Assembly: GCF_000745455.1 (NCBI RefSeq)
Contig: NZ_JQJI01000025.1
Span: 1 to 34,725 of the forward strand
Source: Mesoaciditoga lauensis cd-1655R = DSM 25116
GTDB taxonomy: Bacteria; Thermotogota; Thermotogae; Mesoaciditogales; Mesoaciditogaceae
DNA: 34,725 bases
Direction: 5' to 3'
In this document: piece after piece, positions 14,702 through 32,109 of the stretch
Position numbering within the stretch: position 1 is the stretch's first letter
How the letters are laid out: every line of letters starts with the position of its first letter
The notes under the pieces: generated by a model
The model's input: the letters and a program-made list of their open reading frames with translations, nothing else
Databases searched by the model: none
What the model was told of the DNA's origin: nothing
Translations under genes and position numbers: made by a program

Positions 14702-14748
14702 ACGTTAACCGGTATTGATCGTCATATGGAGTAGTTTACTTTTTCCCT
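14691..14748. terminator. Bidirectional terminator between lacI and the ATPase operon
   Basis: CTACTCCATA-GACG (14691-14704) pairs with CGTC-TATGGAGTAG (14720-14734, one bulge). TTTACTTTTT follows on the plus strand, and runs of A precede the stem and serve as a T-tract for the minus strand. The lacI stop codon lies within the stem and the atpD stop codon just beyond it. Confidence 0.8.
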
Positions 14749-15347
14749 TTCAAGCGTTTCATCCTAAAGAAGTCGTCTCTCTCTGTTTCTTCTATGTAAG
14801 ATTCTATGAATTTCACCGTTTCTTCGTATTGCGGAATGAGAATATTTTCCAAAGCGTTAACCCTTCTCTGGGTTTTCTTTATTTCTCGAGCCAATCGATA
14901 AACCTTTGTTTCTATTTCTGCAAGCCTTGCTATCAAGGAAAGCGCTTTCTTAAAAGATTTGTATGCTCTATCCAAATTAGCATTTGTTTTCACGAACCCA
15001 TAAGAAGGCTCTATTCCTTCAGAGATTTCATCTATTTCCGGTATTTCAACACCCATTATGCTTTTGAGTCTTATCGAAAGCGTGGAAACCTCTTCAACTG
15101 CTATTCCCACTTCTTGAACATGTTCTATTCCTATGCTTAAATTAGCTTTTTGAAGGCTTTCGTACGCTTCGGCAAAAATCGTTTCCATATCTTCTTGAAC
15201 CTCTTTTGCCGAATCTATGAGACGCATCATTTCCCTCACGAGAACATTCCTCTTTTTGTCCAAAAGAGTATGTCCTTCTTTCGCCAACGCAAGCGATCTT
15301 TTCGTTTCTATGAGTTTGCTTTTGGTTGGAGAAACGTTTACGCTCAT
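14736..15347 (-). CDS. atpD: V/A-type ATPase subunit D (central rotor shaft)
   Basis: A protein of 203 residues forming the long coiled-coil shaft that turns inside the A3B3 head. The start [29 protein letters not shown] is the family hallmark, and the C-terminal part is again helical with [12 protein letters not shown], the conserved C-terminal helix. It is the last gene of the operon. The ATG overlaps the stop of subunit B by ATGA, and AGGGAAG lies upstream. Its stop is in the shared terminator. Confidence 0.95.
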
Positions 15348-16732
15348 TTTGTTTCTTCCCTCGCCTTGTAATGCTCTTTGATTTCCTCTTCACTAACACG
15401 GGTAAGTTCAGCGGGTGGCAAATAACCCAACACTTTCCAACCAATATCCAACGTTTCTTCTATTGTTCTGTCTTCGTTTTCTCCCTGAGACAAGAATTCG
15501 CGCTCAAAAGCTTCACCAAATTTGAGGTATCTTTTGTCTATATCTGTTAACTCTTCCTCACCAATTATCGAAGCCAACGCTCTTATCTCTTGCACATGGC
15601 TGTAAGCGGCAAAAAGCTGACTTGAAACGTGAGGATGATCTGCGCGTGTGTAACCTTCACCTATCCCATCTTTCATCAAACGAGAAAGAGAAGGAAGTAT
15701 CCCTATTGGGGGATATACACCCTTTCGCTCAAGTTCCCTGCTAAGCACTATTTGACCTTCTGTTATGTATCCGGTAAGGTCTGGAATGGGATGGGTTATA
15801 TCGTCATTTGGCATTGAAAGAATAGGGATTTGCGTCACAGAACCTTTTCTTCCCTCTATCATACCGGCCCTCTCATAAATGGTGGCCAAATCACTATAAA
15901 GGTATCCAGGGTATCCTTTCCTTGAAGGCACCTCACCACGAGCACTCGAGAGTTCCCTCAAAGCCTCGCAGTAGTTCGTCATATCGGTTAAGATAACCAA
16001 AACATGCATGTTCTTTTCAAACGCAAGGTATTCAGCTGCCGTTAGTGCCACACGTGGGGTGGCTATTCTTTCGATCGTTGGATCATCAGCTAAGTTAAGG
16101 AAAGTAACGACATTTCTTATAGCACCAGATTTTTCAAAGTTCGAAAGTATGTATTGAGCATCATCGTGTTTTATCCCCATGGCGGCAAAAACGATGGCAA
16201 AGTTTCCACTTTCTTCGCCTTTCAATTTTGCCTGCTTTGTTATTTGAACGGCCAACTTATTATGGGGAAGTCCATTTCCAGAAAATATGGGAAGCTTTTG
16301 CCCACGAATAAGCGTCATAAGGCCATCAATAGCGGATATTCCCGTTTGGATGAAATTTCTGGGATACATCCTTGACGCCGGGTTTATCGGCGACCCATTT
16401 ATGTCACGATACGTGCCATTAACTATGTCAGTTCCCCCATCTATAGGCCTTCCTATCCCATTAAACGTCCTTCCCAGGATTTCTTCTGAGACTTTTATCT
16501 GAAGGGTTTTTCCCAGAAACTTTACCTTAGTTTCATTTAAGTTTAGCCCTTGTGTCCCTTCAAAAACTTGGACAACTGCCATATCTTCACTTACTTGAAC
16601 AACCTGTCCAAGTCTTTTCATCCCTTTAAACGTGAGTTCAACAACTTCGTTGTATCCAACGTTTTCAACGTTCTCTATGAAAATAAGTGGCCCATTTATT
16701 TGAGACAATCCAACGTATTCTTTAAGCGGCAT
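15344..16732 (-). CDS. atpB: V/A-type ATPase subunit B (non-catalytic nucleotide subunit)
   Basis: A protein of 462 residues, normal length. It alternates with subunit A in the A3B3 head. The P-loop position reads [12 protein letters not shown], the degenerate form of non-catalytic B subunits. Other landmarks are [46 protein letters not shown] and [20 protein letters not shown], all diagnostic. It follows subunit A by 3 bp with AGGGAGG as ribosome binding site and overlaps subunit D. Confidence 0.97.
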
Positions 16733-16735
16733 CCC

Positions 16736-18523
16736 TCACGCCTCCCTTGCTTTTGCGTACTTTTGATCTAAAGAATCAAAAAATGATTTAAGATCCTTTT
16801 CTATTTTTTTCAACTCATCGAGTTTGTCATTTGGAACTTTTTCTTTCATTCTCATGAGGGTGCTTACTACATCTTCATTTGTGACTTCAGAAATGGCAAC
16901 GCCTTTTGAAACCAATGTCATTGCGCGATCGTAATACATGAGAATAAGCTTCAACATTTCATACTGCTTCTTCAAATCACAAAAAGCATCCACGTCACTG
17001 AAAGCGCTTTGTTGCAAGTATCCTACTTTCAATATTCTAGCCACACGAACGATGAGCTTTTGATCGTCGGGAAGTACATCTTCACCAACGAGTTTTATTA
17101 TCTGCTGAAGATTATCGTCTTCACTAAATATGTTCATCGCTTTCTTGATAAGCAATACAAAATCAGGATGCACGTTCTTTTCAAACCACTCTTCCAGTTC
17201 GCCTACATATTCACTGTAACTGTTCAGCCAACTTATGGAAGGGTAATGCCGAGCATTTGCCAGTGATTTATCCAGAGCCCAGAAACACCTTATGAATCTC
17301 TTCGTATGCGTTGTAACCGGCTCTGAAAAATCTCCCCCTGGTGGTGAAACAGCGCCTATTATGGAAACAGAGCCAATCTTTTCCTCATTCCCCAACACCT
17401 CGACTCTTCCTGCTCTTTCGTAGAATTCCGCCAATCGCGATGACAGATACGGCGGAAATCCTTCTTCAGCCGGCATTTCTTCCAACCTTCCCGATATTTC
17501 CCTAAGAGCTTCTGCCCACCTTGAAGTTGAGTCTGCCATCAAAGCAACGTTGTAGCCCATATCTCTGAAATATTCGGCCATCGTAACGCCGGTGTATATT
17601 GAAGCTTCACGGGCAGAAACCGGCATATTAGAAGTGTTGGCTATAAGAATCGTTCTTTCCATCAAAGGGCGTCCATTTCTAGGATCTTTCAACTGTGGAA
17701 ATTCCTCTAAAACTTCTGTCATCTCATTTCCACGTTCTCCACATCCTATATACACCACAACGTCGGCATCCGACCACTTTGCAAGCTGGTGCTGCGTTAT
17801 CGTTTTGCCGGTTCCAAATCCACCAGGAATTGCTGCCGTTCCTCCTTTGCTTAAAGGGAAAAAGGTATCTATAACTCGTTGGCCTGTGATCAATGGTTCA
17901 GAAGGGGCTAACCTTTTTTTTACAGGTCTGGGAAGCCTTACAGGCCATTTTTGATACATCTTAACTTCCTTATCACCGCTAGAAGTCTTTACCATGAACA
18001 AAACCGTGTCCAATCTGTATCTTCCCGATTTGACCACGTTTGTGGCTTTACCGGATACATCTGGGGGAACCATTATCCTGTGTTCGATGGATTCAGTTTC
18101 CTTTACCTTTGCCACAACCTGACCGGGAATGACTTCTTCCCCTTCTTTTACAAGAACTTCAACTTCCCATTCTTTCTTCATATCCAATGCGTCCGCGCTT
18201 ATTCCTCTTTCAAGAAAGTCGCCGGACTTACTTCTCAGAACGTTCAAAGGGCGCTGTATTCCATCAAAAACACTTTCGATGATACCCGGACCTAACGTCA
18301 CTGATAAAAGCTCACCTGTTCCTTCAACTGGTTCGCCAGGTTTTAGTCCAGAAGTTTCTTCGTAAACTTCTATTGTCACCAGATCTTCATCCAGTGAAAT
18401 CACTTCGCCCATCAGTTTCAAATTCCCAACCTTTACAACTTCATGCATCATAACACCTGTCATGTTCTTTGCTTTAACGACAGGGCCATTTATCATGTAT
18501 ATTTTCCCTATTGCCTTATCCAT
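16736..18523 (-). CDS. atpA: V/A-type ATPase subunit A (catalytic)
   Basis: A protein of about 595 residues. The P-loop GGFGTGKT is at about 234-241, the catalytic Glu lies in GERGNEM (262-268), and [19 protein letters not shown] and [20 protein letters not shown] are typical of the A subunit. The region 110-200 is the non-homologous insert that separates A from F-type beta. It hydrolyses or makes ATP at the A/B interface. I take the ATG at 18523, preceded by GGGTGA at good spacing; a GTG at 18532 overlaps the stop of subunit E and is also possible. Confidence 0.97.
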
Positions 18524-18528
18524 TGTCA

Positions 18529-19143
18529 TCACCCATTAACGTTTAATTTTGAAAACAAAACTCTTAGAAAAGCATCTTTCATTTCCTCGAATTTGTTTTC
18601 AAGCGTGTTTTCCACTTCAACACGCCCATCTTTTGATGAAACTATCACGCCTCCACTTATTTCCGCGTATTTATCTGAGAGGGTGATGTTCACACCAAGT
18701 GCTTTTTCAAATTTCTTGGCCAATTCCAAAACCTTTTCTTTGTCTTCTTTCCTGAAACGGATTACGATTTCTTTTTCTGCCAACGTCTCAATAGCTTCTT
18801 TCATAAGCTTTTCAAGAAGTTTGTCATATCTTTTATCGGAACTTAAAGAGCAAATTCTCTCTCTTAGCTCGTTGGACGCTGAAGTCAATATTCCATTTTT
18901 GGCATCAAGCAACATCTTTGAAGATTTAGCGTCAGATTGAGCTTTTTCTCTCTTTTCGAAATCTTCCGCTTTCTTTTTCGCATCGTCCAATATGCGGGCG
19001 TAAATATCCTCTGCCTTTTTCTTGTATTCTTCTTCTATTTCCTTTGAACGTTTTTCTGCCTCTTTTAACAATTTTTTTGCTTCGGACATGGACTTTGATT
19101 TCACATATTCCTTTAAAGAGCCCATTTTTTTCTCGACGTTCAT
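18529..19143 (-). CDS. atpE: V/A-type ATPase subunit E (peripheral stalk)
   Basis: A protein of 204 residues. The first 110 are a long charged helix (KKLLKEAEKRSKEIEEEYKK), expected to pair with subunit G/H as the peripheral stalk. The C-terminal head carries the family pattern YAEISGGVIVSSKDGRVEVE and ends with NTLENKFEEM. The start overlaps the stop of subunit F (ATGA), with GGGGTGAAG upstream. Confidence 0.92.
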   Translation of the reverse strand: MNVEKKMGSLKEYVKSKSMSEAKKLLKEAEKRSKEIEEEYKKKAEDIYARILDDAKKKAEDFEKREKAQSDAKSSKMLLDAKNGILTSASNELRERICSLSSDKRYDKLLEKLMKEAIETLAEKEIVIRFRKEDKEKVLELAKKFEKALGVNITLSDKYAEISGGVIVSSKDGRVEVENTLENKFEEMKDAFLRVLFSKLNVNG

Positions 19144-19455: not shown

Positions 19456-19914
19456 TCAGATCCTTCCCATTATCATTATCGATATGATCAAACCATAAAT
19501 GGCAACACCTTCGGCCAGACCAACGTAGATGAGGGTTTTCCCAAGCATTTCCGGTTTTTCGCTTATAGCTCCTATTCCGGCCGCTCCTGCTATTCCAACA
19601 CCTATACCGGCTCCCATAGAAGCCAAACCGGTTGAAAGCCCTGCACCTATGTAACCTAATCCTGGGTTTATATTTGCCACTGCGGATGTTGCTGCAGTGC
19701 TAGCACTTTGAGCAAAAGCATGGCCACTGGGAAACATAGTCACAAGTGCGAAAGTGATAAGACCAAACAGCGACACCATATTAGTACCCAAAACTTTTTC
19801 CCCTGTTTTCGTTGGAGAGATCAATCGATTGAATACCTTACGGTTATTAAAAATCACTCCTAACGTAATGGTAACGAATATTACAGAAGACATTAAAATG
19901 AATGAAACTAACAT
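19456..19914 (-). CDS. atpK: V/A-type ATPase rotor subunit K with the ion-carrying Glu
   Basis: A protein of 152 residues. The C-terminal helical hairpin is a standard c/K unit: YIGAGLSTGLASMGAGIG (88-105), the polar loop AISEKPEM, then LIYVGLAEGVAIYGLIISIM with the conserved Glu135 that carries H+ or Na+ through the ring. The N-terminal half has two hydrophobic segments (1-22, 46-67) not like a normal c hairpin, so there seems to be one carboxylate per four helices. The helix lacks the Gln of the GxGQG Na+ site and the Ser/Thr after Glu, which favours H+ (inference). A close paralogue without the Glu lies directly upstream. Ribosome binding site AAAGGAGG. Confidence 0.92.
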   Translation of the reverse strand: MLVSFILMSSVIFVTITLGVIFNNRKVFNRLISPTKTGEKVLGTNMVSLFGLITFALVTMFPSGHAFAQSASTAATSAVANINPGLGYIGAGLSTGLASMGAGIGVGIAGAAGIGAISEKPEMLGKTLIYVGLAEGVAIYGLIISIMIMGRI

Positions 19915-19929
19915 TTCTCTTTCCTCCTT

Positions 19930-20382
19930 TCAAATTTTGCTCATTATCAATATTGAAACTATAAGACCATAAGTTGCAACACCATTGGCTAAACCAGCGT
20001 AGATCATGGACTTTCCTAGCATTTTTGGATTTATATTTCCGACCTTTATTGATGTACTTCCAACTATGCCTGTGCCCCATCCAGCACCAACAGAAGCCAA
20101 TCCTGTTGCCAGTCCAGCTCCTATGTAACCCAGTCCTGTCGAAAGGAGTTCTTTTGATGAGAATATGTGCACATTTGCTATTTGAGCTATAGCTTTGTCT
20201 GGGCTTAAAAAGAGTGCCAACACCGTCATTCCTATGATCACGTTTCCACCAAGTGCTGCATAACTGAAAGCTTTTGCAGAAGAATTTTCCTTTTTTCTTT
20301 TGAAAGGAATTCCTCTCAGCGCCACAAAAGAAACTAAAAACATGCTAAAAATAACAACCACAACGAATTGTAATACAGTCAT
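19930..20382 (-). CDS. Second rotor subunit K paralogue, ion-site Glu replaced by Asn
   Basis: A protein of 150 residues. The C-terminal hairpin is nearly the same as in the next gene: YIGAGLATGLASVGAGWG, loop KVGNINPKM, then IYAGLANGVATYGLIVSILI. At the essential carboxylate position it has Asn133 (codon AAT) where the paralogue has Glu135 (GAA). The N-terminal half again has two hydrophobic segments (3-22 and 40-60) and a basic patch FKRKK. With no carboxylate the subunit cannot carry an ion as normal. It may dilute the ring and change its ion/ATP ratio, or have an assembly role. The frame is intact, with a ribosome binding site (GGAGGGAG) and an ATGA overlap with subunit I, so it is not a pseudogene. 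Confidence 0.88.
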   Translation of the reverse strand: MTVLQFVVVVIFSMFLVSFVALRGIPFKRKKENSSAKAFSYAALGGNVIIGMTVLALFLSPDKAIAQIANVHIFSSKELLSTGLGYIGAGLATGLASVGAGWGTGIVGSTSIKVGNINPKMLGKSMIYAGLANGVATYGLIVSILIMSKI

Positions 20383-22313
20383 TTTTCTCCCTCCATAAAT
20401 GTGAATGGATGGAAATCTTTTCCACTTGCTTCAAAGAATTTAGTGAAAAACTCGTAGTATATAAGCCTTAAATCCTGAATGAAAACAACCAATCCTTCCA
20501 GCCCAACAAGTACCAGCTGTCCAAGTAAGAAAACGATCGTTGCCCATATTCCTCCGCCAACAGTTGGAAGAACCATCAACGTAAGTATCCAAAAGGCCAT
20601 AAACAAAGCTTCATGTGTTAATGCGAACGCCGCAAGCCTCACAAAGGAAATGGTATTGCTCAAATAAGATAGCAACGTTTCGAACATGCCAAATCCCGTC
20701 TCAACCCAAAATCCATTCGGTAAAGACAATTTTTGATGAGTGACTATTTGAGCTAAAGGTTTTTTTAAAAGCATGCATATAAAAGTCACGCCAAGCAAGA
20801 TCTCCCAAAACATAGGGGATAAGGGAATAGGTTTTTTCATAAAATACAATGTCACGATATACACCGATGGGAGGTAAAAGAGAAGACCGGCTATACCTTC
20901 CGCGCTGAAAAGCGCTTTCTCCATATCCTTTTGAAAGAAGCCATTTATCACGTTTAAAATCATACCTAATATAAGCATTCCAATGCCGTAAAAAACAGAT
21001 ATGACGAGAAGCTGGTTTATTTGGAGCGTTGGTTTTAGCCAAAGCGCTGGTATCCAATCGAATCCAAAAACAGATCCGTACATAAAGCCGAAAAATACAG
21101 ATGATAACGCTGAGCTCATCATCACTACGCCAAATTTTCCGGATCCTTTCCTGTACAAAAGATATCCGAACAGGAAAAGTATCAAACCGTGCCCTACATC
21201 TCCTAACATGAATCCATACATGAATATGAAAAAGGCCGTGATGAAAGGTGTAGGATCTATTTCTCCATAACGAGGTACACCGAACATCCTCGTTATAAAT
21301 TCAAAAGCCTGGATTACCTTTCCTCTGTTTATCAATTTTACAGGTACACTTATCGACGGATTTTTTTGAGTTATCTCATTTGGTGAGTTTTCAGCTATCA
21401 AAGCTTTTTCTTCGAGTTCATCACGAATTTTATCAAGTTCATTTTCTGGCATCCAGCCACTCACAAAGTGAATGCTCTTTTGCGGTGTTGAAGAGTTAAA
21501 TTTCTCCAAATCATAAATTCTCTTGTGGGAAACTATCGTAGAATAAACGTTGTCCACAAATTCTTTACTTGCGTAAAGAACTTTATCTACCGCGCTTTCA
21601 TACTCTTTGATCGATATTTTTGTCATTTCAATAAGAGATTCTATTCTCTTCTTTATTTCTTTAGGCGTACCCTGATAACCCACTGGAAGCTTGTCTTCTT
21701 CAAAATAAGCCGATTTCAATATCTTGTGAGCATCATCGACAAAATCTGGCGTGGTAAACACGAATATCCAAAAGTTGTCTTTATCCCTATTCACTTCAAG
21801 TACCAAAATAGGCACGTTCAGTGATGACTCAACTAACGGTTCGTAATGCCTTATAGGCACCCTCCCAAAGAACATCTTTATTCTTCTTATTTCTTCCAAA
21901 TTTTCCAGCTCCACGTTTAAATTTGCCAACACGCTAACGTAGAACAACGCTTTGTTATACTCTTGCAGTTTCTTACTCAATTCATTTTTTCTTTCAAAAG
22001 AGTGTTTTATGCTTTTGTTTAGAAGCGAAAATCTTTTCAGCGTTTTTTGAATGTCTAATCGTTCTTCGATCTTAGATTCATCAAAGCGAGGAGTGTAATC
22101 CGTCATTTTCAAAAAACGCATCATTTCGTTGTAAACTTCCTGATAAGGATTCTTATCCTCAACTGGAAGAAGATCCGAATGTACTTCTTCGGATACAATA
22201 TTCTTAATGTTCAGCGGTTCGAATGCTTGAGATGAAAGTAATTTGAGGTTCACATCTTCTATCCCTTCATCTGGAAAAGCGAGCGTAACATTTTTCATTT
22301 TCGCTAACGGCAC
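20379..22313 (-). CDS. atpI: V/A-type ATPase subunit I (membrane stator)
   Basis: A protein of 644 residues. The N-terminal half (1-345) is soluble and rich in coiled coil, with the usual opening PLAKMKNVTLAF. The C-terminal half has about seven or eight membrane helices starting at GEIDPTPFITAFFIFMYGFM, including the conserved GDVGHG. The half-channel Arg559 lies in SFVRLAAFALTHEALF, and the family ending is QDLRLIYYEFFTKFFEASG. It provides the ion path against the K ring. The start is GTG, supported by GAGGTG and by the alignment of its N-terminus with the family. The stop overlaps the first K gene. Confidence 0.95.
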   Translation of the reverse strand: MPLAKMKNVTLAFPDEGIEDVNLKLLSSQAFEPLNIKNIVSEEVHSDLLPVEDKNPYQEVYNEMMRFLKMTDYTPRFDESKIEERLDIQKTLKRFSLLNKSIKHSFERKNELSKKLQEYNKALFYVSVLANLNVELENLEEIRRIKMFFGRVPIRHYEPLVESSLNVPILVLEVNRDKDNFWIFVFTTPDFVDDAHKILKSAYFEEDKLPVGYQGTPKEIKKRIESLIEMTKISIKEYESAVDKVLYASKEFVDNVYSTIVSHKRIYDLEKFNSSTPQKSIHFVSGWMPENELDKIRDELEEKALIAENSPNEITQKNPSISVPVKLINRGKVIQAFEFITRMFGVPRYGEIDPTPFITAFFIFMYGFMLGDVGHGLILFLFGYLLYRKGSGKFGVVMMSSALSSVFFGFMYGSVFGFDWIPALWLKPTLQINQLLVISVFYGIGMLILGMILNVINGFFQKDMEKALFSAEGIAGLLFYLPSVYIVTLYFMKKPIPLSPMFWEILLGVTFICMLLKKPLAQIVTHQKLSLPNGFWVETGFGMFETLLSYLSNTISFVRLAAFALTHEALFMAFWILTLMVLPTVGGGIWATIVFLLGQLVLVGLEGLVVFIQDLRLIYYEFFTKFFEASGKDFHPFTFMEGEK

Positions 22314-22322
22314 ATTTTCACC

Positions 22323-23408
22323 TCAAATCCACGTTATCAAGTAGTTCTTTATTTCGCTTTTTTCTAAGTTATATCTCACACCTTCTATTATGGTGATCAC
22401 ATCCATGATCTCATACTCTTTCAAAAAGAGATAATGAAAAAATGAAGCTATGGAAAAACCACCATATGTTGATATAGCCTCTTTTGAACTTTCGTAAAGA
22501 TATCTTTTCATGCTCAACGTAAGCATTTCAGGCACTACATTCGTTGTCTTTTCAGACACGCTTCTTATAAGCTCATCATAAGGTCCCTCACTTGCGATAT
22601 TCAAAAGACTTTCTAAATCTTTTGCATCGCACAAAGTGTGGAGATAAGTTGAACTCAGCCTAAATCCCATTGGGATCAACGAGTTGTACAACTCTTCACT
22701 TCCCAACGAATAAAAAGCCTTTGCCCTTATTATCCATTCCATGTTGATAAGATCTATTTTTTCACCTATGATGCTTTTGATAACAAGGTAATCATCATAG
22801 TCTAAACTTTTGGCAGCTCTCAAAAAGCCAAAGAACAACCAGCGATCTAGTCCGTTTTCAATACTTTGGATCAAATTTGCTGTTTTTCTTTCATAACTTG
22901 CAAAAGCATTTCTTACGACTTCATAATACGGAGTGTCTTCCAAAGAAGTGAGTATTTCATCTCTTGACGAACACGAGGCAACTTCTATTGGATCGATGAT
23001 GGCCTTTTTACCCAGATCGTAAAACTTTCCATTTAATTCTTCCAAATTTTTCTTGTATTCTTTTTCAACCAACGCATTTCTTAAGGCCAATTTAAGGTTT
23101 TCTACTTCATACATTCTCATGATGTAATAAGCAAAATGGCGATTCAAGGTCACAAAGAAAGCAAATATTCTTTTAACATCTTCTACAAGGTCTACCTTTA
23201 AACGCATCTCAAGATCCCTTCTGTGAAGTTCTTCAGGTTTGGCATCTTTGAGGATATTTGCGTACATCTTGCTTCCTTTAAGGTAAGCAGTTATCTCCGG
23301 AACGCTCTTTTTGCTCATAAGCGTTTCGTAATCACTTTTCGTCAGAAAGCGACTTGCCATGCTCGCCAATTTCGCTTGTACACCCGCATAAAGGAGCACT
23401 TTGCTCAT
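22323..23408 (-). CDS. atpC: V/A-type ATPase subunit C (rotor socket)
   Basis: A protein of 361 residues, the usual length. It is an all-helical protein that sits as a funnel on the K ring and holds the D/F shaft. Segments ASMASRFLTKSDYETLMSKK, YIMRMYEVENLKLALRN and the closing VITIIEGVRYNLEKSEIKN match the family. It overlaps the upstream stalk gene by ATGA. Its position before subunit I, between stalk and membrane genes, differs from the more usual I-K-E-C-F-A-B-D order that I know from other bacteria. Confidence 0.9.
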   Translation of the reverse strand: MSKVLLYAGVQAKLASMASRFLTKSDYETLMSKKSVPEITAYLKGSKMYANILKDAKPEELHRRDLEMRLKVDLVEDVKRIFAFFVTLNRHFAYYIMRMYEVENLKLALRNALVEKEYKKNLEELNGKFYDLGKKAIIDPIEVASCSSRDEILTSLEDTPYYEVVRNAFASYERKTANLIQSIENGLDRWLFFGFLRAAKSLDYDDYLVIKSIIGEKIDLINMEWIIRAKAFYSLGSEELYNSLIPMGFRLSSTYLHTLCDAKDLESLLNIASEGPYDELIRSVSEKTTNVVPEMLTLSMKRYLYESSKEAISTYGGFSIASFFHYLFLKEYEIMDVITIIEGVRYNLEKSEIKNYLITWI

Positions 23409-23731
23409 CTTTTTTCTACCTCTAAGAAGTCAGATATAAAACTCTCAATGGTATCGTCTTTCACGTTTAGATACGTTTCGCGCATTTTCATGATTTGAGC
23501 ACGGGTTTCGCTTAAAATATTTTCTTCATTTATTCTCATTCTTTCTTCTGATTCCTTCAACATCTTTCTGGCTATTTCATTTGCTTCATCTGTTTTCGAC
23601 TCGATAAGCTTTTTTCCTTCTTTTTCGGCTTTGCTTATCATCTCTTCGCTTTTGCGCTTTGCATCTTGGACGATATTTCTCGATTCCTTTTCGGAGGCCA
23701 CAAGTTCTCTTATTATGTCTTCTATCTCCAT
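23405..23731 (-). CDS. V/A-type ATPase subunit G/H (peripheral stalk coiled coil)
   Basis: A protein of 108 residues, almost entirely a charged coiled coil (EKESRNIVQDAKRKSEEMIS), with no other domain. That composition and its place as first gene of the operon mark it as the partner of subunit E in the peripheral stalk. The ribosome binding site AAGGAGGAG lies at good spacing. Position and coiled coil support the assignment more than any strict motif. Confidence 0.85.
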   Translation of the reverse strand: MEIEDIIRELVASEKESRNIVQDAKRKSEEMISKAEKEGKKLIESKTDEANEIARKMLKESEERMRINEENILSETRAQIMKMRETYLNVKDDTIESFISDFLEVEKR

Positions 23732-23882: not shown

Positions 23883-24116
23883 TTAACTTTGTTCTTCAAG
23901 CAATTCCGAGATTTTGTTAACCTCGTCTATTTTTTCATTCAAATCTTCAACAGCCTTTTTCACATCTATTTGGTTATCCTTTGCAAAAGATTCCAAACTG
24001 CTCATTTTTGAGCAACATGCATTAAAGCCTAATTTGAATAATTCACTTTCTAACAAAGGATTTCTTTCCATTATCTCCTTGAGTGTCATTTTCTCGTTAA
24101 TGTGATCGAATTTCAT
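23883..24116 (-). CDS. DUF1858-like small redox protein
   Basis: A protein of 77 residues. The pattern MTLKEIMERNPLLESELFKL then GFNACCSKMSSLESFA and a Leu/Glu-rich tail fits the DUF1858 (hybrid-cluster-protein-associated, ScdA N-terminal-like) domain. Family members have one or two Cys at this loop, here an adjacent Cys-Cys pair. The pair may bind a metal or form a disulfide. The ATG at 24116 is 9 bp after AGGAGG; the ATG at 24125 is too close to it. It is the last gene of the DUF302-copA operon, which suggests a role in copper handling (inference). Confidence 0.7.
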   Translation of the reverse strand: MKFDHINEKMTLKEIMERNPLLESELFKLGFNACCSKMSSLESFAKDNQIDVKKAVEDLNEKIDEVNKISELLEEQS

Positions 24117-24132
24117 CGCAATCATCCTCCTT

Positions 24133-26574
24133 TCAATCGATAGGACGTTTTTTAAGTCTCAGAGAATTCGTAACAACATTCACTGAGCTGGATGCCATTG
24201 CTATTTCAGCTATAATGGGATGCAAAAGTCCCATGCCGGCAAGTGGTATAGCCACAACGTTGTAGAAAAAAGCCCAAAACAAATTCTGGCGTATTTTCTG
24301 GAAGGTGGCTTTAGAAAGCTTTATAGCTTTAACAACACCCATCAGTTCACCTTTGACCAAAGTTATATCGCTGGCTTCTTTTGCTATATCTGTTCCGGTC
24401 CCTATGGCAATTCCAACGTTGGCTTGTTTCAAAGACGGGGCATCGTTTATTCCGTCTCCAACCATGGCAACAATTTTAGATTGCGATTGAAGTTTCTTTA
24501 TCTCTTCTATCTTGTCAGAAGGCAGTAAATTGTATCTTACGTCGTCGATGTCCATCTGGTGGGCAACAGATTTAGCCGTGAACTCGTTATCTCCCGTAAG
24601 CATAACTGTTTTTATTCCCATTTCCTTAAGTGTTCTTATCGCTTCACGTGCACCATCTTTTATGGTATCTGCCAACGCTATCATTCCAAGATACTTTCCC
24701 TTCTCTTCAAAAGCCACTATCATGGTTTTTCCTTCTGCTCCATACCTCTGGAAATCTAAAGGAACCGTGATCCCTTTTGAAGATGCAAAACGAGGACTTG
24801 TGACGAAGATCCTCTTACCATTTATAATCCCCTCTATGCCAAATCCTGGATGGACTAGAAGATCTTCCACTTTTTCAAACTTCACGCCCTTAGATTTAGC
24901 ATATTCTACGATTGCTTTTCCCAAAGGATGTTCAGAGTAATTTTCAATAGAGCCAACTATTTTGAGAAACTCATTTTCATTTACTTTCGATTCGAGATCT
25001 GTAACATGAGGAACACCATTGGTTATCGTACCCGTTTTATCGAAGACAACAGTATCAACATCTTTGGCAGTCTGCAAAGCTTCACCGGATCTGATCAGTA
25101 TTCCTTCTGAGGCGCCTTTACCTGATCCGACCATTAGAGCCGTTGGAGTTGCCAATCCAAGCGCACATGGGCAAGCTATGACAAGAGTTGCAACTGCTGC
25201 AAATATTGCTGCGGAAAGCGCATCAAGGTTGGGATCAACCCAGGGAAGAAAAGAGGAAGCCCAAACCATCATTCCGTGGCCTGCCGCAGGATTAAGAAGC
25301 CAAAAGATAAAAACTGACGCTGCGGTAAGAAGCACGACCGGTACGAAAATACCAATTATTTTATCCGCAAAGGCTTGTATGGGAACTTTAGTTCCTTGTG
25401 CTTCGTCAACTAGCTTTATCACTTGAGAAAGAAAGGTATCTTCGCCAACTCGTGTAACCCTTACCTTGATTGTGCCTAATTGGTTAACGGTAGAACCTAT
25501 TACTTCATCTCCAATAGAGCGCCTTACAGGCATCGATTCACCAGTTGCCATTGATTCGTCCACTGTGGTATCTCCATCCAATATCACGCCATCTGTTGGA
25601 ATCTGCTCTGATGGTTTTACGATCATGATATCTCCCACCGCAAGAGATTCTGTTGGTATCTCAATTTCTTTGCCATCATCGTCAAGAATACGTGCGTTTT
25701 TCGCACTCATTTGAAGAAGCTTTTTAATAGCTTCTGATGCTTTACCTTTTGCCGCAGTTTCAAGATATTTCCCCACCAAGAAGAATCCCATGATCATTGC
25801 ACCAACAGCCGAATAATCAGCTATTTTCATACCGGCAAGTGACAAAATTCCTGTTGTAAAAGATGCCGTAACTCCTAGCAAAATGAGGACATCCATATTT
25901 GTACCACGATGAATTAGCGCCACTAATCCACTTCTTATTGGGCCATATCCTATTATAAAGATAACAGGAAATGATACGATCACGCTTATCCAATCGAAAT
26001 AAGGTATTTTCAGTCCTATCATATCGACGATCATCATGATGGCAAGAGGTCCTGTGATTGCCCATGCCCAAATCATTTTTGTCTTTGCCGATTTTACTTT
26101 TTTGGCAAAATCGTCCGTGCGAGAAGTTTGTTTTTCTCGTGATATCACGAGTTCGTAGCCAGCGTTCGAAACCGCTTTTGCCATTTCGCGTTCGGAAACA
26201 ACGTTAGGATCTATCACAACGGTCGCCTTTTCTGTGGCAATGTTAACAGACACATCCGTAACCCCAGGTACTTTTTTTAACGTTTTTTCAACGGTTATTG
26301 CGCAAGAGGCGCAAGTCATACCGTTAACTTTATAAGATTTCTTCGCATTGGCATCTTCTTCTTCTATTTTGATAAGCGACGCATCATAACCTGTATTTTT
26401 AACGATGGTTATCAACTCATCAGGATCTATGTCTTCCCCTTCAACAATAGCTCTTTCCACCGCGAAATTCACGACCGCTTTGGCACCTTCAGCTTTTTTG
26501 TTTAGGGCCTTCTCAATCGTTATGGCACAAGATGCACAAGTCATTCCTTTAAGATCCAAAATTACTTTTTTCAT
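24133..26574 (-). CDS. copA: Copper-exporting P1B-type ATPase
   Basis: A protein of 813 residues. Two heavy-metal-binding domains lie at the N-terminus, each with GMTCASC (Cys13/Cys16 and Cys88/Cys91). Membrane helices follow; the ion-pathway motif CPC is at 468-470 (VIACPCALGLATPTA), TGES at 344-347, phosphorylated Asp512 in DKTGTIT, the SEHPLG motif and GDGINDAPSL. CPC with two CxxC domains is typical of Cu(I) export. The ATG at 26574 is preceded by GGAAGGAAG; an in-frame GTG at 26592 overlaps the DUF302 stop. The middle gene of a three-gene operon with a CsoR-like operator. Confidence 0.96.
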   Translation of the reverse strand: MKKVILDLKGMTCASCAITIEKALNKKAEGAKAVVNFAVERAIVEGEDIDPDELITIVKNTGYDASLIKIEEEDANAKKSYKVNGMTCASCAITVEKTLKKVPGVTDVSVNIATEKATVVIDPNVVSEREMAKAVSNAGYELVISREKQTSRTDDFAKKVKSAKTKMIWAWAITGPLAIMMIVDMIGLKIPYFDWISVIVSFPVIFIIGYGPIRSGLVALIHRGTNMDVLILLGVTASFTTGILSLAGMKIADYSAVGAMIMGFFLVGKYLETAAKGKASEAIKKLLQMSAKNARILDDDGKEIEIPTESLAVGDIMIVKPSEQIPTDGVILDGDTTVDESMATGESMPVRRSIGDEVIGSTVNQLGTIKVRVTRVGEDTFLSQVIKLVDEAQGTKVPIQAFADKIIGIFVPVVLLTAASVFIFWLLNPAAGHGMMVWASSFLPWVDPNLDALSAAIFAAVATLVIACPCALGLATPTALMVGSGKGASEGILIRSGEALQTAKDVDTVVFDKTGTITNGVPHVTDLESKVNENEFLKIVGSIENYSEHPLGKAIVEYAKSKGVKFEKVEDLLVHPGFGIEGIINGKRIFVTSPRFASSKGITVPLDFQRYGAEGKTMIVAFEEKGKYLGMIALADTIKDGAREAIRTLKEMGIKTVMLTGDNEFTAKSVAHQMDIDDVRYNLLPSDKIEEIKKLQSQSKIVAMVGDGINDAPSLKQANVGIAIGTGTDIAKEASDITLVKGELMGVVKAIKLSKATFQKIRQNLFWAFFYNVVAIPLAGMGLLHPIIAEIAMASSSVNVVTNSLRLKKRPID

Positions 26575-26588
26575 TTTACTTCCTTCCT

Positions 26589-26978
26589 TCACGAAGAGGA
26601 CAATGCCATGGAAATTCTCTCTAAGGCATCTCCAACATCCTTTAAAATTTCCAACATTTCTGAAGAGGCGCTTTCAATGAAAGATGTTGGCTGCACATAG
26701 ACCACTTTGTATGCTCCATTTTCTTCAAAGATCCCCATTTTACATGGAAGGTATATGCCAATTGATGTGTCTAACAAGAGTATTTTCTCAGCATTAGATG
26801 GATTACATATATCCACAACGTAGACATTACTATCGCATTTTTTACCTTTCGAAGTTAGTATTTTTTTGAAATCGTACTCTGCCAAAATTGAAAAACCTTC
26901 TGTTTCAATTGCATTTTTGAAATCTTCCTTCAAAGATTCAAAATCCTTTCCTTTCAGAGTTTTCTTTATCATTTTCAT
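26589..26978 (-). CDS. DUF302-family protein
   Basis: A protein of 129 residues. The sequence has the DUF302 pattern: a lysine-rich start, GFSILAEYDFKKIL, VYVVDICNPSNAEKIL, GIYLPCKMGIFEENG and VVYVQPTSF. Members are often found with copper or other redox stress genes, with no settled function. The single conserved LPC Cys could be a ligand. AAGGAGG lies 8 bp before the ATG. It is the first gene after the CsoR-like operator, in an operon with copA. Confidence 0.8.
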   Translation of the reverse strand: MKMIKKTLKGKDFESLKEDFKNAIETEGFSILAEYDFKKILTSKGKKCDSNVYVVDICNPSNAEKILLLDTSIGIYLPCKMGIFEENGAYKVVYVQPTSFIESASSEMLEILKDVGDALERISMALSSS

Positions 26979-27198: not shown

Positions 27199-27936
27199 AT
27201 GACATTATTAGAAATAGAGAATCTTCATGCTGAAGTTAGGGGAAGAGAAATTATAAAAGGACTTGATTTAAAAATCAATTGTGGTGAAGTACATGCTGTA
27301 ATGGGGCCGAACGGTGCGGGAAAAACAACATTGGCTAATTTGATAATGGGAAACCCAAACTATAAAATTACAGCTGGCAAGATTTTGTTTAAAGGGAAAA
27401 ACATTGTTGGTCTGCCTGTAAACGAGCGAGCAAAACTTGGTGTTTTTCAATCTTTTCAATATCCAGAAGAAATACCCGGTGTAACTGTGAGAAACTTTTT
27501 AAAACTTGCCTACGACATTTTGCATCCAAATGAAAAGAAAAGTGTTTTTGATTTCGGCGATATGTTGTTGAGGGTGGCAAACAAATTGAAAATTGATAGT
27601 TCTTTTTTGGATAGAGATATAAATGTTGGTTTTTCAGGTGGGGAAAGGAAAAAAATAGAAATACTACAGTTAAATATTCTCAAACCCCAACTTGCTGTAT
27701 TGGACGAAACAGATTCCGGACTTGATATAGATGCTTTAAAAATTGTTGCTAAAGGCGTAAACAACATTTTGAGTTCAGGAGTTAGTGTTTTGCTTATAAC
27801 GCATTACAACAGAATACTTGAATACATCAATCCGAATTTTGTGCATGTTTTTGTGAATGGAAGGATAGTAAAAACAGGGGGTCCAGAGATCGCCAAAGTA
27901 CTTGAAGCCAAAGGATATGAATCGTTTGCATATTGA
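27199..27936 (+). CDS. sufC: SufC, ABC-type ATPase of the Fe-S assembly scaffold
   Basis: A protein of 245 residues. Walker A is GPNGAGKTTLANLIMGNP (35-52), the signature FSGGERKKIEILQL and Walker B LAVLDETDSGLDIDAL, where ETDSGLDID is characteristic of SufC. It is a soluble ATPase that works with SufB and SufD to build Fe-S clusters. AAAGGAGG precedes the ATG. First gene of sufCBDSU with 10 bp to sufB. Confidence 0.96.
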   Translation: MTLLEIENLHAEVRGREIIKGLDLKINCGEVHAVMGPNGAGKTTLANLIMGNPNYKITAGKILFKGKNIVGLPVNERAKLGVFQSFQYPEEIPGVTVRNFLKLAYDILHPNEKKSVFDFGDMLLRVANKLKIDSSFLDRDINVGFSGGERKKIEILQLNILKPQLAVLDETDSGLDIDALKIVAKGVNNILSSGVSVLLITHYNRILEYINPNFVHVFVNGRIVKTGGPEIAKVLEAKGYESFAY

Positions 27937-27946
27937 GGAGGTTATC

Positions 27947-29320
27947 ATGAGAAAAAAAGTGGATAGAGAGCAAAGTTCAAATGTCATCCTCAAAAATTCA
28001 AATGAATTAAGCAAAAAGCTTATAGAAGAAATATCGTATAACAAAGGAGAACCTCTTTGGATGAAAGAACTTAGACTTAAATCCCTTGACATTTTTTTAA
28101 ACAAACCGAATCCAAATTTTGGAGTCGATCTTTCAAAATTAGATATCAATGAAATTATTCCATATCTTAAACCGAATGCTGAAAAAAGCAGAAGTTGGGA
28201 TGATGTTCCTGAAAACATAAAAGAGACATTTGAAAAGCTTGGCATTCCAGAAGCCGAGCGAAAGGTTCTTTCTGGCGTCGGCGCACAATACGATTCAGAA
28301 ATAGTCTATCAAAATATAAAAGAGCATCTTTCAAAATTGGGAGTCATATTTTTAGATATGGAAAGCGCGGTCAGAGAATATCCTCAATTAGTCAAGAAGT
28401 ACTTCATGCAAGCGGTTCCGCCGACAGATCATAAATTTGCTGCTCTTCATGGTGCTGTTTGGAGCGGAGGATCTTTCGTTTATGTACCCGAAAACGTTGA
28501 GGTGCCGATGCCATTGCAAGCTTACTTTATGATGGCATCACCAGGCATAGGTCAATTCGAACATACTCTTATCATTTTAGAAAGAGGAGCAAAACTTCAT
28601 TTTATAGAAGGGTGTTCTGCTCCAAAATATAGCGTTTCAAACCTTCATAGCGGCATGGTAGAAATATTTGTTGGTGAAGGAGCTACAATGCGCTACAGCA
28701 CTATCCAAAATTGGTCAAAAAATACTTACAATTTAAACACAAAACGTGCGCTCGTCAATAAAGACGCCACTATGATTTGGGTTTCAGGCTCTATAGGTTC
28801 ATCTAAAACCATGCTTTATCCAACAAGTATTTTAAAGGGAAATGGAGCGCGTGCAGAACATTTGAACATTACCTATGCTGGGAGAGAACAACATTTGGAT
28901 ACAGGTTCAAAAGTCATTCATCTTGCTCCTTATACTTCTTCAAAAATTGATGCACGAAGCATAAGCTCCAATGGAGGATGGTCTTTCTATCGAGGACTCT
29001 TGAAAGTCTCGCAAGATGCTCTTCATGTCAAATCAAGTGTTGAATGCTCTGCATTAATGTTAGATGGTGAATCAGCGTCTGACACATTACCAATCATGGA
29101 GATCATGAATAATGAGGCCGATGTGGGTCACGAGGCACGCGTTGGAAGAATAAAAGAAGAACAAATTTATTACCTCATGAGTCGGGGATTGAATGAGAAC
29201 GATGCTAAGGCAATGATAGTTCGGGGATTCATGGCACCTATTGTTAAACAGTTGCCGTTGGAATACGCAATAGAATTCAACAGACTTGTAAGTATGAACT
29301 TCGAGTCTAGCTTGGGGTGA
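27947..29320 (+). CDS. sufB: SufB, Fe-S cluster scaffold subunit
   Basis: A protein of 457 residues. Family landmarks run through the protein: AALHGAVWSGGSFVYVPENV, FEHTLIILERGAKLHFIEGC with its CSAPKYS segment, NWSKNTYNLNTKRA, and near the end DVGHEARVGRIKEEQIYYLM with SRGL. These are SufB-type, not SufD-type. GAGGAGG sits just before the ATG at 27947. The stop is TGA overlapping the sufD start as TGATG. Confidence 0.96.
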   Translation: MRKKVDREQSSNVILKNSNELSKKLIEEISYNKGEPLWMKELRLKSLDIFLNKPNPNFGVDLSKLDINEIIPYLKPNAEKSRSWDDVPENIKETFEKLGIPEAERKVLSGVGAQYDSEIVYQNIKEHLSKLGVIFLDMESAVREYPQLVKKYFMQAVPPTDHKFAALHGAVWSGGSFVYVPENVEVPMPLQAYFMMASPGIGQFEHTLIILERGAKLHFIEGCSAPKYSVSNLHSGMVEIFVGEGATMRYSTIQNWSKNTYNLNTKRALVNKDATMIWVSGSIGSSKTMLYPTSILKGNGARAEHLNITYAGREQHLDTGSKVIHLAPYTSSKIDARSISSNGGWSFYRGLLKVSQDALHVKSSVECSALMLDGESASDTLPIMEIMNNEADVGHEARVGRIKEEQIYYLMSRGLNENDAKAMIVRGFMAPIVKQLPLEYAIEFNRLVSMNFESSLG

Positions 29321-30477
29321 TGAAGATGGAAATGACGATGGTCAAACCTGAAGTGAAAACTTTTCGCCCCCTTTACGATTATGATGAGAAAGAAGCGAAA
29401 AGGCTTGGACTTTTCAAATGGAGAAAACCTTTCATAAAAAAATATGCACGAATTGGTTTTCCCACATGGAAACGCTTAAAACTCTCACAAGTGCCTCTGG
29501 GAAAGTTAAAAACGTACAAAGGAAATTTTTTAGAGGGAAATGCAAGCATCCTTGAAACTTTTACTAACGCGGTTCGGAAAAATATCGTCAAGGAATTTCA
29601 AGAGATGCCTCACTATGGAGCTCATCCCAAATTCACGCTAATGTCCCAAGCATTTTTCACCACTGGCTTTTTTATTAAATCTCTTGATCGTAGCAAGGTA
29701 TATGCACACTATGATCTCGAACTCAATCCCAATACGATAGAAAATTCATTTGTCGTTGTTAAAAGCGGATCGGAACTCACGCTGGTGCGTGAGATCACAG
29801 GGAAGGGAAACATGAGGGTCTCTTCTACAAAATTTTTAGTAGAAGATGGAGCAAAACTGAATTTCTTTAACATATTCATCTCTCCTGACACATCTTTTTC
29901 AATAGATTCAAATATATACAATATAGGAAAAGACGCCAATGTGAAAGTTTATGACGTACTCTTAGGTGGAAAGAAAGTTGCATCAAATCACGAATTCAAT
30001 CTTGTTGGAATGAACGCTGCTGCAAATCTTTCCTCTTTTTACTTCGAGACAGGACAAGAACGAGCCGATCTGGAATATAAATTAATTCACGATGCGCCAG
30101 AAACAACAGGTTACTTGGAGGGAAATGGTGTGGTTAATGAAGAATCTTATGTGGTATTTAGGGGAAATATATGGATCCCCGCGAAATCATATGGAGTAAA
30201 ATCACGAGAAAAAAGTCATGCCATTAATTTGTCCCCTAAAGCACGAGTAGATGCTATTCCTTCGTTAAGCGTTAGAAACAATGCCGTAAATGCCGAACAT
30301 GCTGCATCAATTGGTAATTTAGACGATAAAAAACTTTATTACATGATGTCACGAGGTCTCAGCAGAGAAGAAGCGTTAAAAACCATCATAGAGGGTATGT
30401 TTGAACCCCTTATGAGAATGATTCCAATAAAATCTGTAAAGAAGGATGTCAAAAATGGAATCATCAGTAGGATCTAG
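29320..30477 (+). CDS. sufD: SufD, Fe-S cluster scaffold subunit
   Basis: A protein of about 385 residues, a paralogue of SufB. The N-terminal part is unlike SufB (KTFRPLYDYDEKEAKRLGLF), and the C-terminal half has the shared beta-helix with AINLSPKARVDAIPSLSV, NAEHAASIGNLDDKKLYYMM and SRGLSREEA. It forms the SufBCD complex. The start is one of several close ATG codons; I take the TGATG overlap at 29320, with ATG 29326 a good alternative since GGGGTGA lies before it. The end overlaps the sufS start region. Confidence 0.95.
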   Translation: MKMEMTMVKPEVKTFRPLYDYDEKEAKRLGLFKWRKPFIKKYARIGFPTWKRLKLSQVPLGKLKTYKGNFLEGNASILETFTNAVRKNIVKEFQEMPHYGAHPKFTLMSQAFFTTGFFIKSLDRSKVYAHYDLELNPNTIENSFVVVKSGSELTLVREITGKGNMRVSSTKFLVEDGAKLNFFNIFISPDTSFSIDSNIYNIGKDANVKVYDVLLGGKKVASNHEFNLVGMNAAANLSSFYFETGQERADLEYKLIHDAPETTGYLEGNGVVNEESYVVFRGNIWIPAKSYGVKSREKSHAINLSPKARVDAIPSLSVRNNAVNAEHAASIGNLDDKKLYYMMSRGLSREEALKTIIEGMFEPLMRMIPIKSVKKDVKNGIISRI

Positions 30478-31684
30478 AATAAAAGCGGATTTTCCAATCT
30501 TATCGACTATATTCGAAGATGGGCAAAAATTGGTCTACCTCGATAACGCAGCAACGACTCAAAAACCAAAATGTGTGATCGAGAGAATCAATCATTTTTA
30601 CACTTTTGAAAATGCTAACGTTTCAAGAGGCGCACATCGATTGGGAAACATTTCTACTGTAGAATACAAAAATGCAAGAAAAAAAGTGGCAAAATTCATA
30701 AACGCTCAGCCATCGGAAATAACATTCACTTCTGGCACGACCGAATCTATAAATGCCGTTGTTTACATTTGGGGAGAGGAAAACATTCATGAAAATGATG
30801 AAATTCTTGTTTTAGAAAGTGAACATCACAGCAACTTTGTTCCATGGCAGCAGTTAGCGAAAAGGAAAAAAGCCGTTTTTAAAGTTTTGAAGGTAGAAGA
30901 TGATGGAACGATTGATCTAAAAAAGTTCAAAATGGCCGTTACACAAAGAACGAGAGTGGTAGCTTTTGCTCATGCCACCAATACTTTTGGAGTGATACAT
31001 CCTATTCATGAAATGATAGAAATCGCGCATTCACGGAGAGCGATAACTGTTGTTGATGGAGCACAATCTGTACCTCATATTCCAACAGATATAAAAGAAA
31101 TGGGTGCGGATTTTCTGGCTTTTTCAGGTCATAAAATGCTTGGCCCGATGGGTATAGGTGTGTTGTACGTGTCAAAGAATAGAATGAATGAACTTAGGCC
31201 ATTTCTAATGGGAGGTGGCATGATCGATGAAGTAAAAAATGACTTTACAAAATTCGCGCTGCCACCTGAAAAATTCGAAGCCGGAACTCCAAATGTTGCG
31301 GGCGCAGTGGGATTGGCGACAGCCATTGAATATTTGGAAAAAATTCAAATGAAAAATGTACTTTCTCATGATCATGAACTCTTGGAATACGTTTACAAAA
31401 GGTTGACAGAGGTGAAAGATTTAAAACTATATGGACCACGAAAACTTAAAGATCGCGTTGGTGTTCTTTCATTTAACATAAAGGACATTCATCCTCATGA
31501 TGTTGCGACTATTTTAGACGCTCAAGGAGTTGCTATTAGAGCAGGTCATCACTGTGCCCAACCGTTGCTGGCACAACTTAAAATATATTACACTGCACGT
31601 GCAAGCTTTTACATTTACAATACTAAAGAAGATATTGATTCCCTTGTAAATGCTGTAGAAGAGGTAAAAAGGAGGTTTGCATGA
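30455..31684 (+). CDS. sufS: SufS, cysteine desulfurase (group II)
   Basis: A protein of 409 residues. It is a PLP enzyme that takes sulfur from cysteine. The start is like SufS: YLDNAATTQKP; then SRGAHRLG, FTSGTTESIN, VDGAQSVPH and FSGHKMLGPMG with PLP Lys227. Active-site Cys367 is in IRAGHHCAQP, the group II pattern. The ATG at 30455 has GAAGG 9 bp before it and overlaps the sufD end by 23 bp. An ATGA overlap follows with sufU, its sulfur acceptor. Confidence 0.96.
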   Translation: MESSVGSRIKADFPILSTIFEDGQKLVYLDNAATTQKPKCVIERINHFYTFENANVSRGAHRLGNISTVEYKNARKKVAKFINAQPSEITFTSGTTESINAVVYIWGEENIHENDEILVLESEHHSNFVPWQQLAKRKKAVFKVLKVEDDGTIDLKKFKMAVTQRTRVVAFAHATNTFGVIHPIHEMIEIAHSRRAITVVDGAQSVPHIPTDIKEMGADFLAFSGHKMLGPMGIGVLYVSKNRMNELRPFLMGGGMIDEVKNDFTKFALPPEKFEAGTPNVAGAVGLATAIEYLEKIQMKNVLSHDHELLEYVYKRLTEVKDLKLYGPRKLKDRVGVLSFNIKDIHPHDVATILDAQGVAIRAGHHCAQPLLAQLKIYYTARASFYIYNTKEDIDSLVNAVEEVKRRFA

Positions 31685-32109
31685 TGGATATATCGGATCT
31701 CTATACAGAAATCATAATGGATCATCAAAAAAATCCAAGAAATTATGGAATGATCGAAAATAAAGATAGGGAAGTTCATCTTACCAATTCTTCGTGTGGA
31801 GATGAAATATTCCTCCAAGTAAAATTAAATAGAGAGAAAATACAAGACATAGCTTTCTATGGTCATGGATGTGCAATATGCACTGCTTCCGCATCGATAA
31901 TGACTGATCTTGTAAAAGGTATATCCCGCGAAAAAGCTCTGGAATTTTATGAAGAATTTATCCAAATGGTTAGAAGTGGAAAGAAACCTTCTTCTTTTCT
32001 AAAAGATGCGCGCGTTTTCGAAGGGGTATCTCAATATCCTCTAAGGGTGAAATGCGCCACTCTTGCGTGGCATGCTTTAAAAAAAGCTATTACAATCGAA
32101 GAAAAATAA
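31681..32109 (+). CDS. sufU: SufU, sulfur acceptor of SufS
   Basis: A protein of 142 residues. Three or four Cys of the SufU/IscU-like zinc site are present: Cys39 in SSCGDE with Asp41, Cys64 and Cys67 in HGCAICTAS, and Cys125 in RVKCATLAW. SufU takes persulfide sulfur from SufS, with Zn exchange of ligands. The start is ATG after AAAAGGAGGTTTGC, overlapping sufS by ATGA. It is the last gene; no clear terminator lies in the short gap to the convergent csoR gene. Confidence 0.95.
   Translation: MMDISDLYTEIIMDHQKNPRNYGMIENKDREVHLTNSSCGDEIFLQVKLNREKIQDIAFYGHGCAICTASASIMTDLVKGISREKALEFYEEFIQMVRSGKKPSSFLKDARVFEGVSQYPLRVKCATLAWHALKKAITIEEK

Follow-up and report, generated by a model that had tools for sequence, protein, structure and literature searches.

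The V/A-ATPase operon of Mesoaciditoga lauensis carries, beside an ordinary Glu-type rotor gene (K1), a second K gene (K2) in which the ion-carrying glutamate is replaced by asparagine. This Asn-type K subunit (Asn-K) is real, conserved and restricted to one family, the Mesoaciditogaceae. At a probability of roughly 60%, K2 would be a co-assembled ion-less subunit of a mixed K ring, lowering the H+/ATP ratio for proton export. The analysed window is the whole of contig C21 (34,725 nucleotides) of the 2.17 Mb M. lauensis genome (G000; Thermotogota). K2 sits inside the operon, which lies on the minus strand in the order stalk subunit, C, I, K2, K1, F, E, A, B, D; the order I-K2-K1-F-E-A-B-D also occurs in the closest relative of the window genome (G012) and, with a second Asn-K gene, in G013, G014 and G016. 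The operon features and the K2 and K1 sites are as follows.

23405..23731, minus strand, atpG/H-like peripheral stalk subunit (weak Pfam V-ATPase_G match, just below the cut-off)
22323..23408, minus strand, atpC, rotor-top AC39/d subunit (Pfam vATP-synt_AC39, 2.4e-67)
20379..22313, minus strand, atpI, stator a/I subunit (ORF, Pfam, motifs)
20390..20394, minus strand, K2 ribosome-binding site GGAGG
19930..20382, minus strand, K2, Asn-type K (rotor) subunit gene, 150 aa (intact ORF)
20071..20073, minus strand, K2 Thr104, ion-pocket position (equivalence from spacing to the loop Pro and PMC2359735)
19996..19998, minus strand, K2 Ala129 (site -4), Val/Ile/Leu in all Glu-K (alignment)
19984..19986, minus strand, K2 Asn133 codon AAT, at the position of the ion-carrying Glu (alignment)
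19972..19974, minus strand, K2 Thr137 (site +4), Ile/Leu in all Glu-K (alignment)
19923..19928, minus strand, K1 ribosome-binding site AGGAGG
19456..19914, minus strand, K1, Glu-type K (rotor) subunit gene, 152 aa (intact ORF)
19510..19512, minus strand, K1 Glu135 codon GAA
19140..19451, minus strand, atpF (ORF; same place in relatives by similarity)
18529..19143, minus strand, atpE, peripheral stalk (ORF; similarity in relatives)
16736..18532, minus strand, atpA, catalytic subunit (ORF; similarity in relatives)
15344..16732, minus strand, atpB (ORF; similarity in relatives)
14736..15347, minus strand, atpD, central stalk (ORF; similarity in relatives)

Elsewhere in the window, a two-HMA P-type metal ATPase (24133-26592) lies in the region 23883-26978, flanked by a DUF1858-like protein (23883-24125) and a DUF302 protein (26589-26978). 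The region 27199-32109 on the plus strand is a SUF iron-sulphur cluster operon with an ABC ATPase, two SufB/D-core proteins, a class-V aminotransferase and a NifU-like scaffold.

K2 starts inside the atpI stop codon (ATGA overlap) and is followed by K1 after 15 bases. The initial annotation had contrasted GLANGVATYGL (K2, AAT) with GLAEGVAIYGL (K1, GAA) and described frame, ribosome-binding site and atpI overlap of K2 as intact. Both statements were confirmed, the former at Asn133 and Glu135, the latter by the 150-aa ORF, GGAGG and ATGA. Its description of nearly the same last hairpin fits the last helix and is overstated for the whole hairpin, in which 43 of 69 residues are identical. In K2, a leader of two segments at the N-terminus precedes a c/K hairpin (residues ~83-150); the N-terminal half of the K proteins resembles a leader, with two hydrophobic segments and AxA at its end. 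With a cut-off of 24 bits, the Pfam profile ATP-synt_C (PF00137) matched K2 with the full length of the profile (profile 1-60, K2 residues 87-146; 52.7 bits, 5.3e-14) and the K1 hairpin with 67.8 bits. Each protein contains a single ATP-synt_C stretch, not the two hairpins of V-type c subunits (NtpK, eukaryotic c). The carboxylate in the middle of the outer helix is absent from K2 and replaced by Asn in all eight Asn-K, so that K2 belongs to the K family by homology and is not a canonical ion-carrying K. The confidence of an AlphaFold model of K2 was low (57.5), and the model was silent on ring contacts.

For the coupling ion, Na+ ligand positions were taken from PMC2359735. Na+-type rings have an inner-helix Gln or second Glu and a Ser/Thr after the Glu; these positions hold Val and Gly in K1, and Thr and Gly in K2. 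Since K1 thus has no Na+ ligands besides its Glu (Val at the Gln position, Gly after the Glu), H+ is the likely ion and the V/A-ATPase of M. lauensis is probably a proton pump. The atpI motifs SFVRLAAFALTHEAL and FIQDLRLIYYEFF retain the Arg/Gln/Arg pattern contacting the rotor Glu, as defined in T. thermophilus (PMC7367684).

For the distribution of Asn-K, 103 Thermotogota genomes were searched by similarity. Eight Asn-K genes were found in five genomes of three genera, all Mesoaciditogaceae, which rules out a sequencing error or private mutation. G000 and G012 have one copy each; G013, G014 and G016 have two (N1 and N2), giving three tandem K genes of the types Asn-Asn-Glu (L059, L060 and L058, respectively). 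Asn-K genes always lie between atpI and the Glu-type K gene. The K2 orthologue is 89% identical in G012 and 65-66% in G013, G014 and G016, and the Asn codon varies synonymously (AAT/AAC). An alignment of relatives had been proposed in the initial annotation as the check for Asn conservation, and uniqueness to this genome with decay in relatives as the contrary outcome. The Asn form is not private to M. lauensis, and decay was seen in one relative, G015. A motif scan with a degenerate DNA pattern (K/N/Q/H in place of Glu) returned exactly the eight Asn-K and nothing else from the 103 Thermotogota genomes. The same scan of 399 Bacillota genomes gave no true Asn-K and one unrelated protein; it sees only part of the K genes, as its Glu version matches only 6 of 61 Bacillota genomes. 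In the open-access literature searched, no free-standing conserved K subunit lacking the ion site was found. Four Athalassotoga genomes (G008-G011) have the Glu-K gene only. In one of them (G008, L062), C, I and K stand together and, in contrast to the rest of the family, F, E, A, B and D do not adjoin, so that the operon seems split. In a stator comparison across relatives, no a-subunit residue clearly tracked the presence of Asn-K; position 376 of I (V/I) was the only one common to G015 and the other genomes lacking Asn-K.

Phylogenetically, Asn-K is monophyletic (support 100/100) with two subclades; the N1/N2 duplication therefore predates Mesoaciditoga, where one copy remains. The clade groups with the Glu-K of the Mesoaciditogaceae, with weak support (51/87) for the split. 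Horizontal transfer from eukaryotes, at which the closer match between K2 and eukaryotic c hints, was rejected because of this placement (51/87) and the shared operon place and leader. Around the Asn, N1 and N2 of one genome are more alike (0.89-0.96) than N1 copies of different genomes (0.82-0.84), which suggests local gene conversion between Asn copies; the Glu copy is outside it. The Asn in N1 and that in N2 are consequently not independently kept.

For estimates of selection, dN/dS was calculated between orthologues by the Nei-Gojobori method; synonymous distances were near saturation, so that the following ratios are rough. K2 (G000/G012) gave 0.049, N1 0.073-0.090 and N2 0.104-0.186, and the Glu gene 0.037-0.073 (0.15 for G015). 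For the hairpin only, values were 0.018-0.043 (K2/N1) and 0.03-0.11 (N2). Purifying selection on Asn-K is thus of about the same strength as on the Glu genes, and the sequences support the view that it evolves like a functional rotor subunit. The low ratios, though rough, exclude neutral decay of Asn-K, and a pseudogene was ruled out on the same ground, G015 excepted. The broken Asn-K and absent N2 of G015 are what a functionless, decaying duplicate would predict, but the gene is intact in five other genomes at dN/dS of 0.05-0.09 (K2/N1) and 0.10-0.19 (N2), and the stator gene of G015 is altered as well, the whole enzyme changing there; such a duplicate is extremely improbable.

In G015, Asn-K is disrupted by internal deletions, frame changes and stops (L061:4640-5700), with relics legible as MIFAELANGVATYE. 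Reading frames of the other V/A-ATPase subunits are open. Its stator motif has changed from RLAAFALTHEAL to RLAAFALMHGAL, with conserved T>M and E>G in LTHEAL, and non-synonymous change in I is 0.054 on the G015 branch vs 0.019 in the sister G014; D and B likewise show more on the G015 branch. These stator changes and the faster change indicate drift or re-adaptation of the entire enzyme in this lineage, so that Asn-K was lost along with relaxed or altered constraint on the enzyme as a whole. Asn-K is hence dispensable in at least one lineage.

Hairpin columns of the 8 Asn-K were compared with those of 51 Glu-K (Thermotogota and Clostridia). Nine columns separate the two sets with zero exceptions. 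Numbered from the Glu site and given as Glu-K > Asn-K, they are -29 V>T, -20 G>K/N/R, -19 A>V/I, -17 S>N/R/K, -16 E>I/L/F, -4 V/I/L>A, 0 E>N, +4 I/L>T and +12 M>L. As the Asn-K clade is single, the nine are not independent events, and they may trace to one ancestral event. Site -29, the pocket position, is Thr in 8/8 Asn-K and Val in 51/51 Glu-K. It lies 15 residues before the loop Pro, and the same residue count leads to Gln32 of Ilyobacter c and Gln110 of NtpK, both ligands in Na+ rings (PMC2359735). Sites -4, 0 and +4 form one face of the outer helix; pocket (-29) and ion-site face have thus changed together.

Asn-K retains the glycine packing motif and the loop Lys, as expected for a ring member from the sequence. 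Helix lengths are kept, with no gaps, and conservation is highest in the outer helix, which faces the stator. Instead of being a ring subunit, Asn-K might bind K1 while the ring is assembled, as a membrane chaperone or inhibitor; the strong divergence between the N-terminal leaders of K1 and K2 would accord with this. A chaperone would have no need of a conserved stator-facing helix, and the retained packing motif and gap-free helix lengths also speak against it, so that we consider this role unlikely.

The cytoplasmic loop toward the central stalk is acidic in Glu-K and basic or hydrophobic in Asn-K. This consistent change (the universal Glu at site -16 to Ile/Leu/Phe, Ser at -17 to Arg/Asn/Lys, Gly at -20 to Lys/Asn/Arg) could also fit Asn-K in one or a few fixed places of the ring, serving mainly assembly, central-stalk register, or as a brake or clutch against back-flow and ATP synthesis, and not the setting of the ion/ATP ratio. 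Yeast c' and c'' are single-copy paralogues. In the PS3 enzyme one neutral subunit suffices to block synthesis (PMC8809890). That three genomes have two Asn-K genes for each Glu-K gene, on the other hand, hints at more than a marker. We hold the fixed-place arrangement to be possible but doubtful; its distinction from the mixed ring is a matter of degree, as any ring membership lowers the site number at least slightly.

Asn133 is followed by Gly in K2, and the NG dipeptide is found in 8/8 Asn-K. Asn-Gly is the motif most prone to deamidation. Slow conversion to Asp or isoAsp at the growth optimum of 57-60 °C (PMC7795431) would turn K2 into a delayed or variant ion carrier, which we regard as very unlikely. 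Since Glu-K already has this Gly (EG), it was not selected for, and the surrounding V>T and I>T changes do not suggest an Asp carrier. Rigid helices, moreover, disfavour deamidation.

Among known systems, the V/A-type K/L of T. thermophilus shares operon type, leader-like N-terminus, single hairpin and loop/helix spacing with the proteins described here. K1 matched T. thermophilus K with E 5.9e-11, K2 only with E 0.03. Unlike T. thermophilus, whose c12 ring has one kind of c subunit with Glu63 (PMC7367684), Mesoaciditoga has a second K gene without the Glu. Among proteins of solved structure, K2 matches eukaryotic V-ATPase c subunits best (5e-12). K2 GAGWGT aligns without gaps to GAAYGT of the first, Glu-less hairpin of eukaryotic c, and both have the pocket Thr and an aromatic residue two positions before it; the Glu-bearing hairpin of eukaryotic c has Ile opposite the pocket Thr. 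By alignment, Glu-less hairpins of two lineages thus share the pocket Thr. The Glu-less hairpin of E. hirae NtpK presumably has Val at this position, so that Thr is not universal. In E. hirae NtpK and eukaryotic V-ATPase c, ion-less hairpins stand beside Glu-bearing ones in the ring, as proposed here, and the residue at the missing-Glu site is Gly in these two-hairpin proteins vs Asn in K2. Their hairpins are fused in one protein at a fixed 1:1 ratio; with separate genes, as in Mesoaciditoga, the hairpin ratio is free.

The F/V hybrid rotor of A. woodii (c1 with c2/c3) combines several gene products in one ring, one hairpin lacking an ion site. It differs from the ring proposed here in being F-type and Na+-dependent with one two-hairpin V-type c1 per ring, and none of its subunits is a separate single hairpin whose carboxylate has been replaced. 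As far as the work of Matthies et al. 2014 is reported in PMC7793690, it has 10 Na+ sites. Engineered PS3 c10 rings (E56Q, E56D) also contain subunits without the normal carboxylate. They are artificial, and one E56Q subunit is enough to stop ATP synthesis (PMC8809890); the natural Asn-K differs in having further changes around the site. The PS3 result means that a rotary motor can be halted by a neutral position, and it counts against a naive mixed ring; a block of synthesis may be compatible with a pump-only enzyme.

In the preferred reading, K2 would be a rotor-ring subunit that lost its coupling-ion site under selection and joins the Glu-type K1 in one mixed ring, each K2 hairpin acting as a tooth that is always neutral when it passes the stator. 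The place of the protonated Glu would be taken by Asn133, probably hydrogen-bonded to Thr104 of its own hairpin. With such neutral hairpins in the K1:K2 stoichiometry, protons per turn would be fewer than hairpins, and at 3 ATP per turn the H+/ATP ratio would be lowered, favouring export against a large gradient. The acidic ion-binding residue had initially been ascribed to all rings, which needs qualifying: V-type K/c hairpins without a carboxylate exist (PMC2359735). Since ion-less hairpins have this precedent in V-type rings, a mixed ring with fewer sites is a reasonable analogy. The occurrence of two or three K genes within a single operon accords with such a ring. In a V-ATPase, Na+/ATP follows site number (3.2 measured vs 10/3; PMC12018189), and fewer protons per ATP allow pumping against a larger gradient, an argument of Cross and Taiz on eukaryotic V-ATPases as related in PMC2359735. 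Proton export would be driven by ATP in a thermoacidophile (M. lauensis grows at pH 4.1-6.0, optimally at 57-60 °C; PMC7795431), leaving ATP synthesis to a separate enzyme with a Na+ signature. A complete F1Fo operon is present on contig C1 (L080:2473-8803); its c subunit shows a Na+ motif of a described type (PMC3692424), with AEST and two carboxylates, the second of them in the inner helix. Against the mixed ring stand the loss of Asn-K in G015 and its lack in the four Athalassotoga genomes, despite the acidophily of A. saccharophila (PMC7163026).

The ion-less hairpin of V-type rings is known; its form as a free-standing gene appears to be new, as far as the open-access literature searched shows. 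Ion/ATP ratios are thought to evolve by ring size, or by hairpin fusion and carboxylate loss as in eukaryotic V-ATPases. Asn-K would represent the same step as a conserved free-standing subunit without carboxylate, and the ratio could vary by gene dosage. That separate rotor genes, with and without an ion site, determine the gear ratio through their dosage is a tentative idea, which we would not favour at present. If true, the number of protons carried per turn would be fixed or tuned by the proportion of K1 to Asn-K (the genes stand at one Glu to one or two Asn) and could fall to about one site for every two or three hairpins, as in a dedicated high-force proton exporter. Asn-K would also test how a rotary motor passes a neutral position that stops an engineered F-type ring, and Mesoaciditoga with and Athalassotoga without Asn-K offer a natural, culturable comparison.
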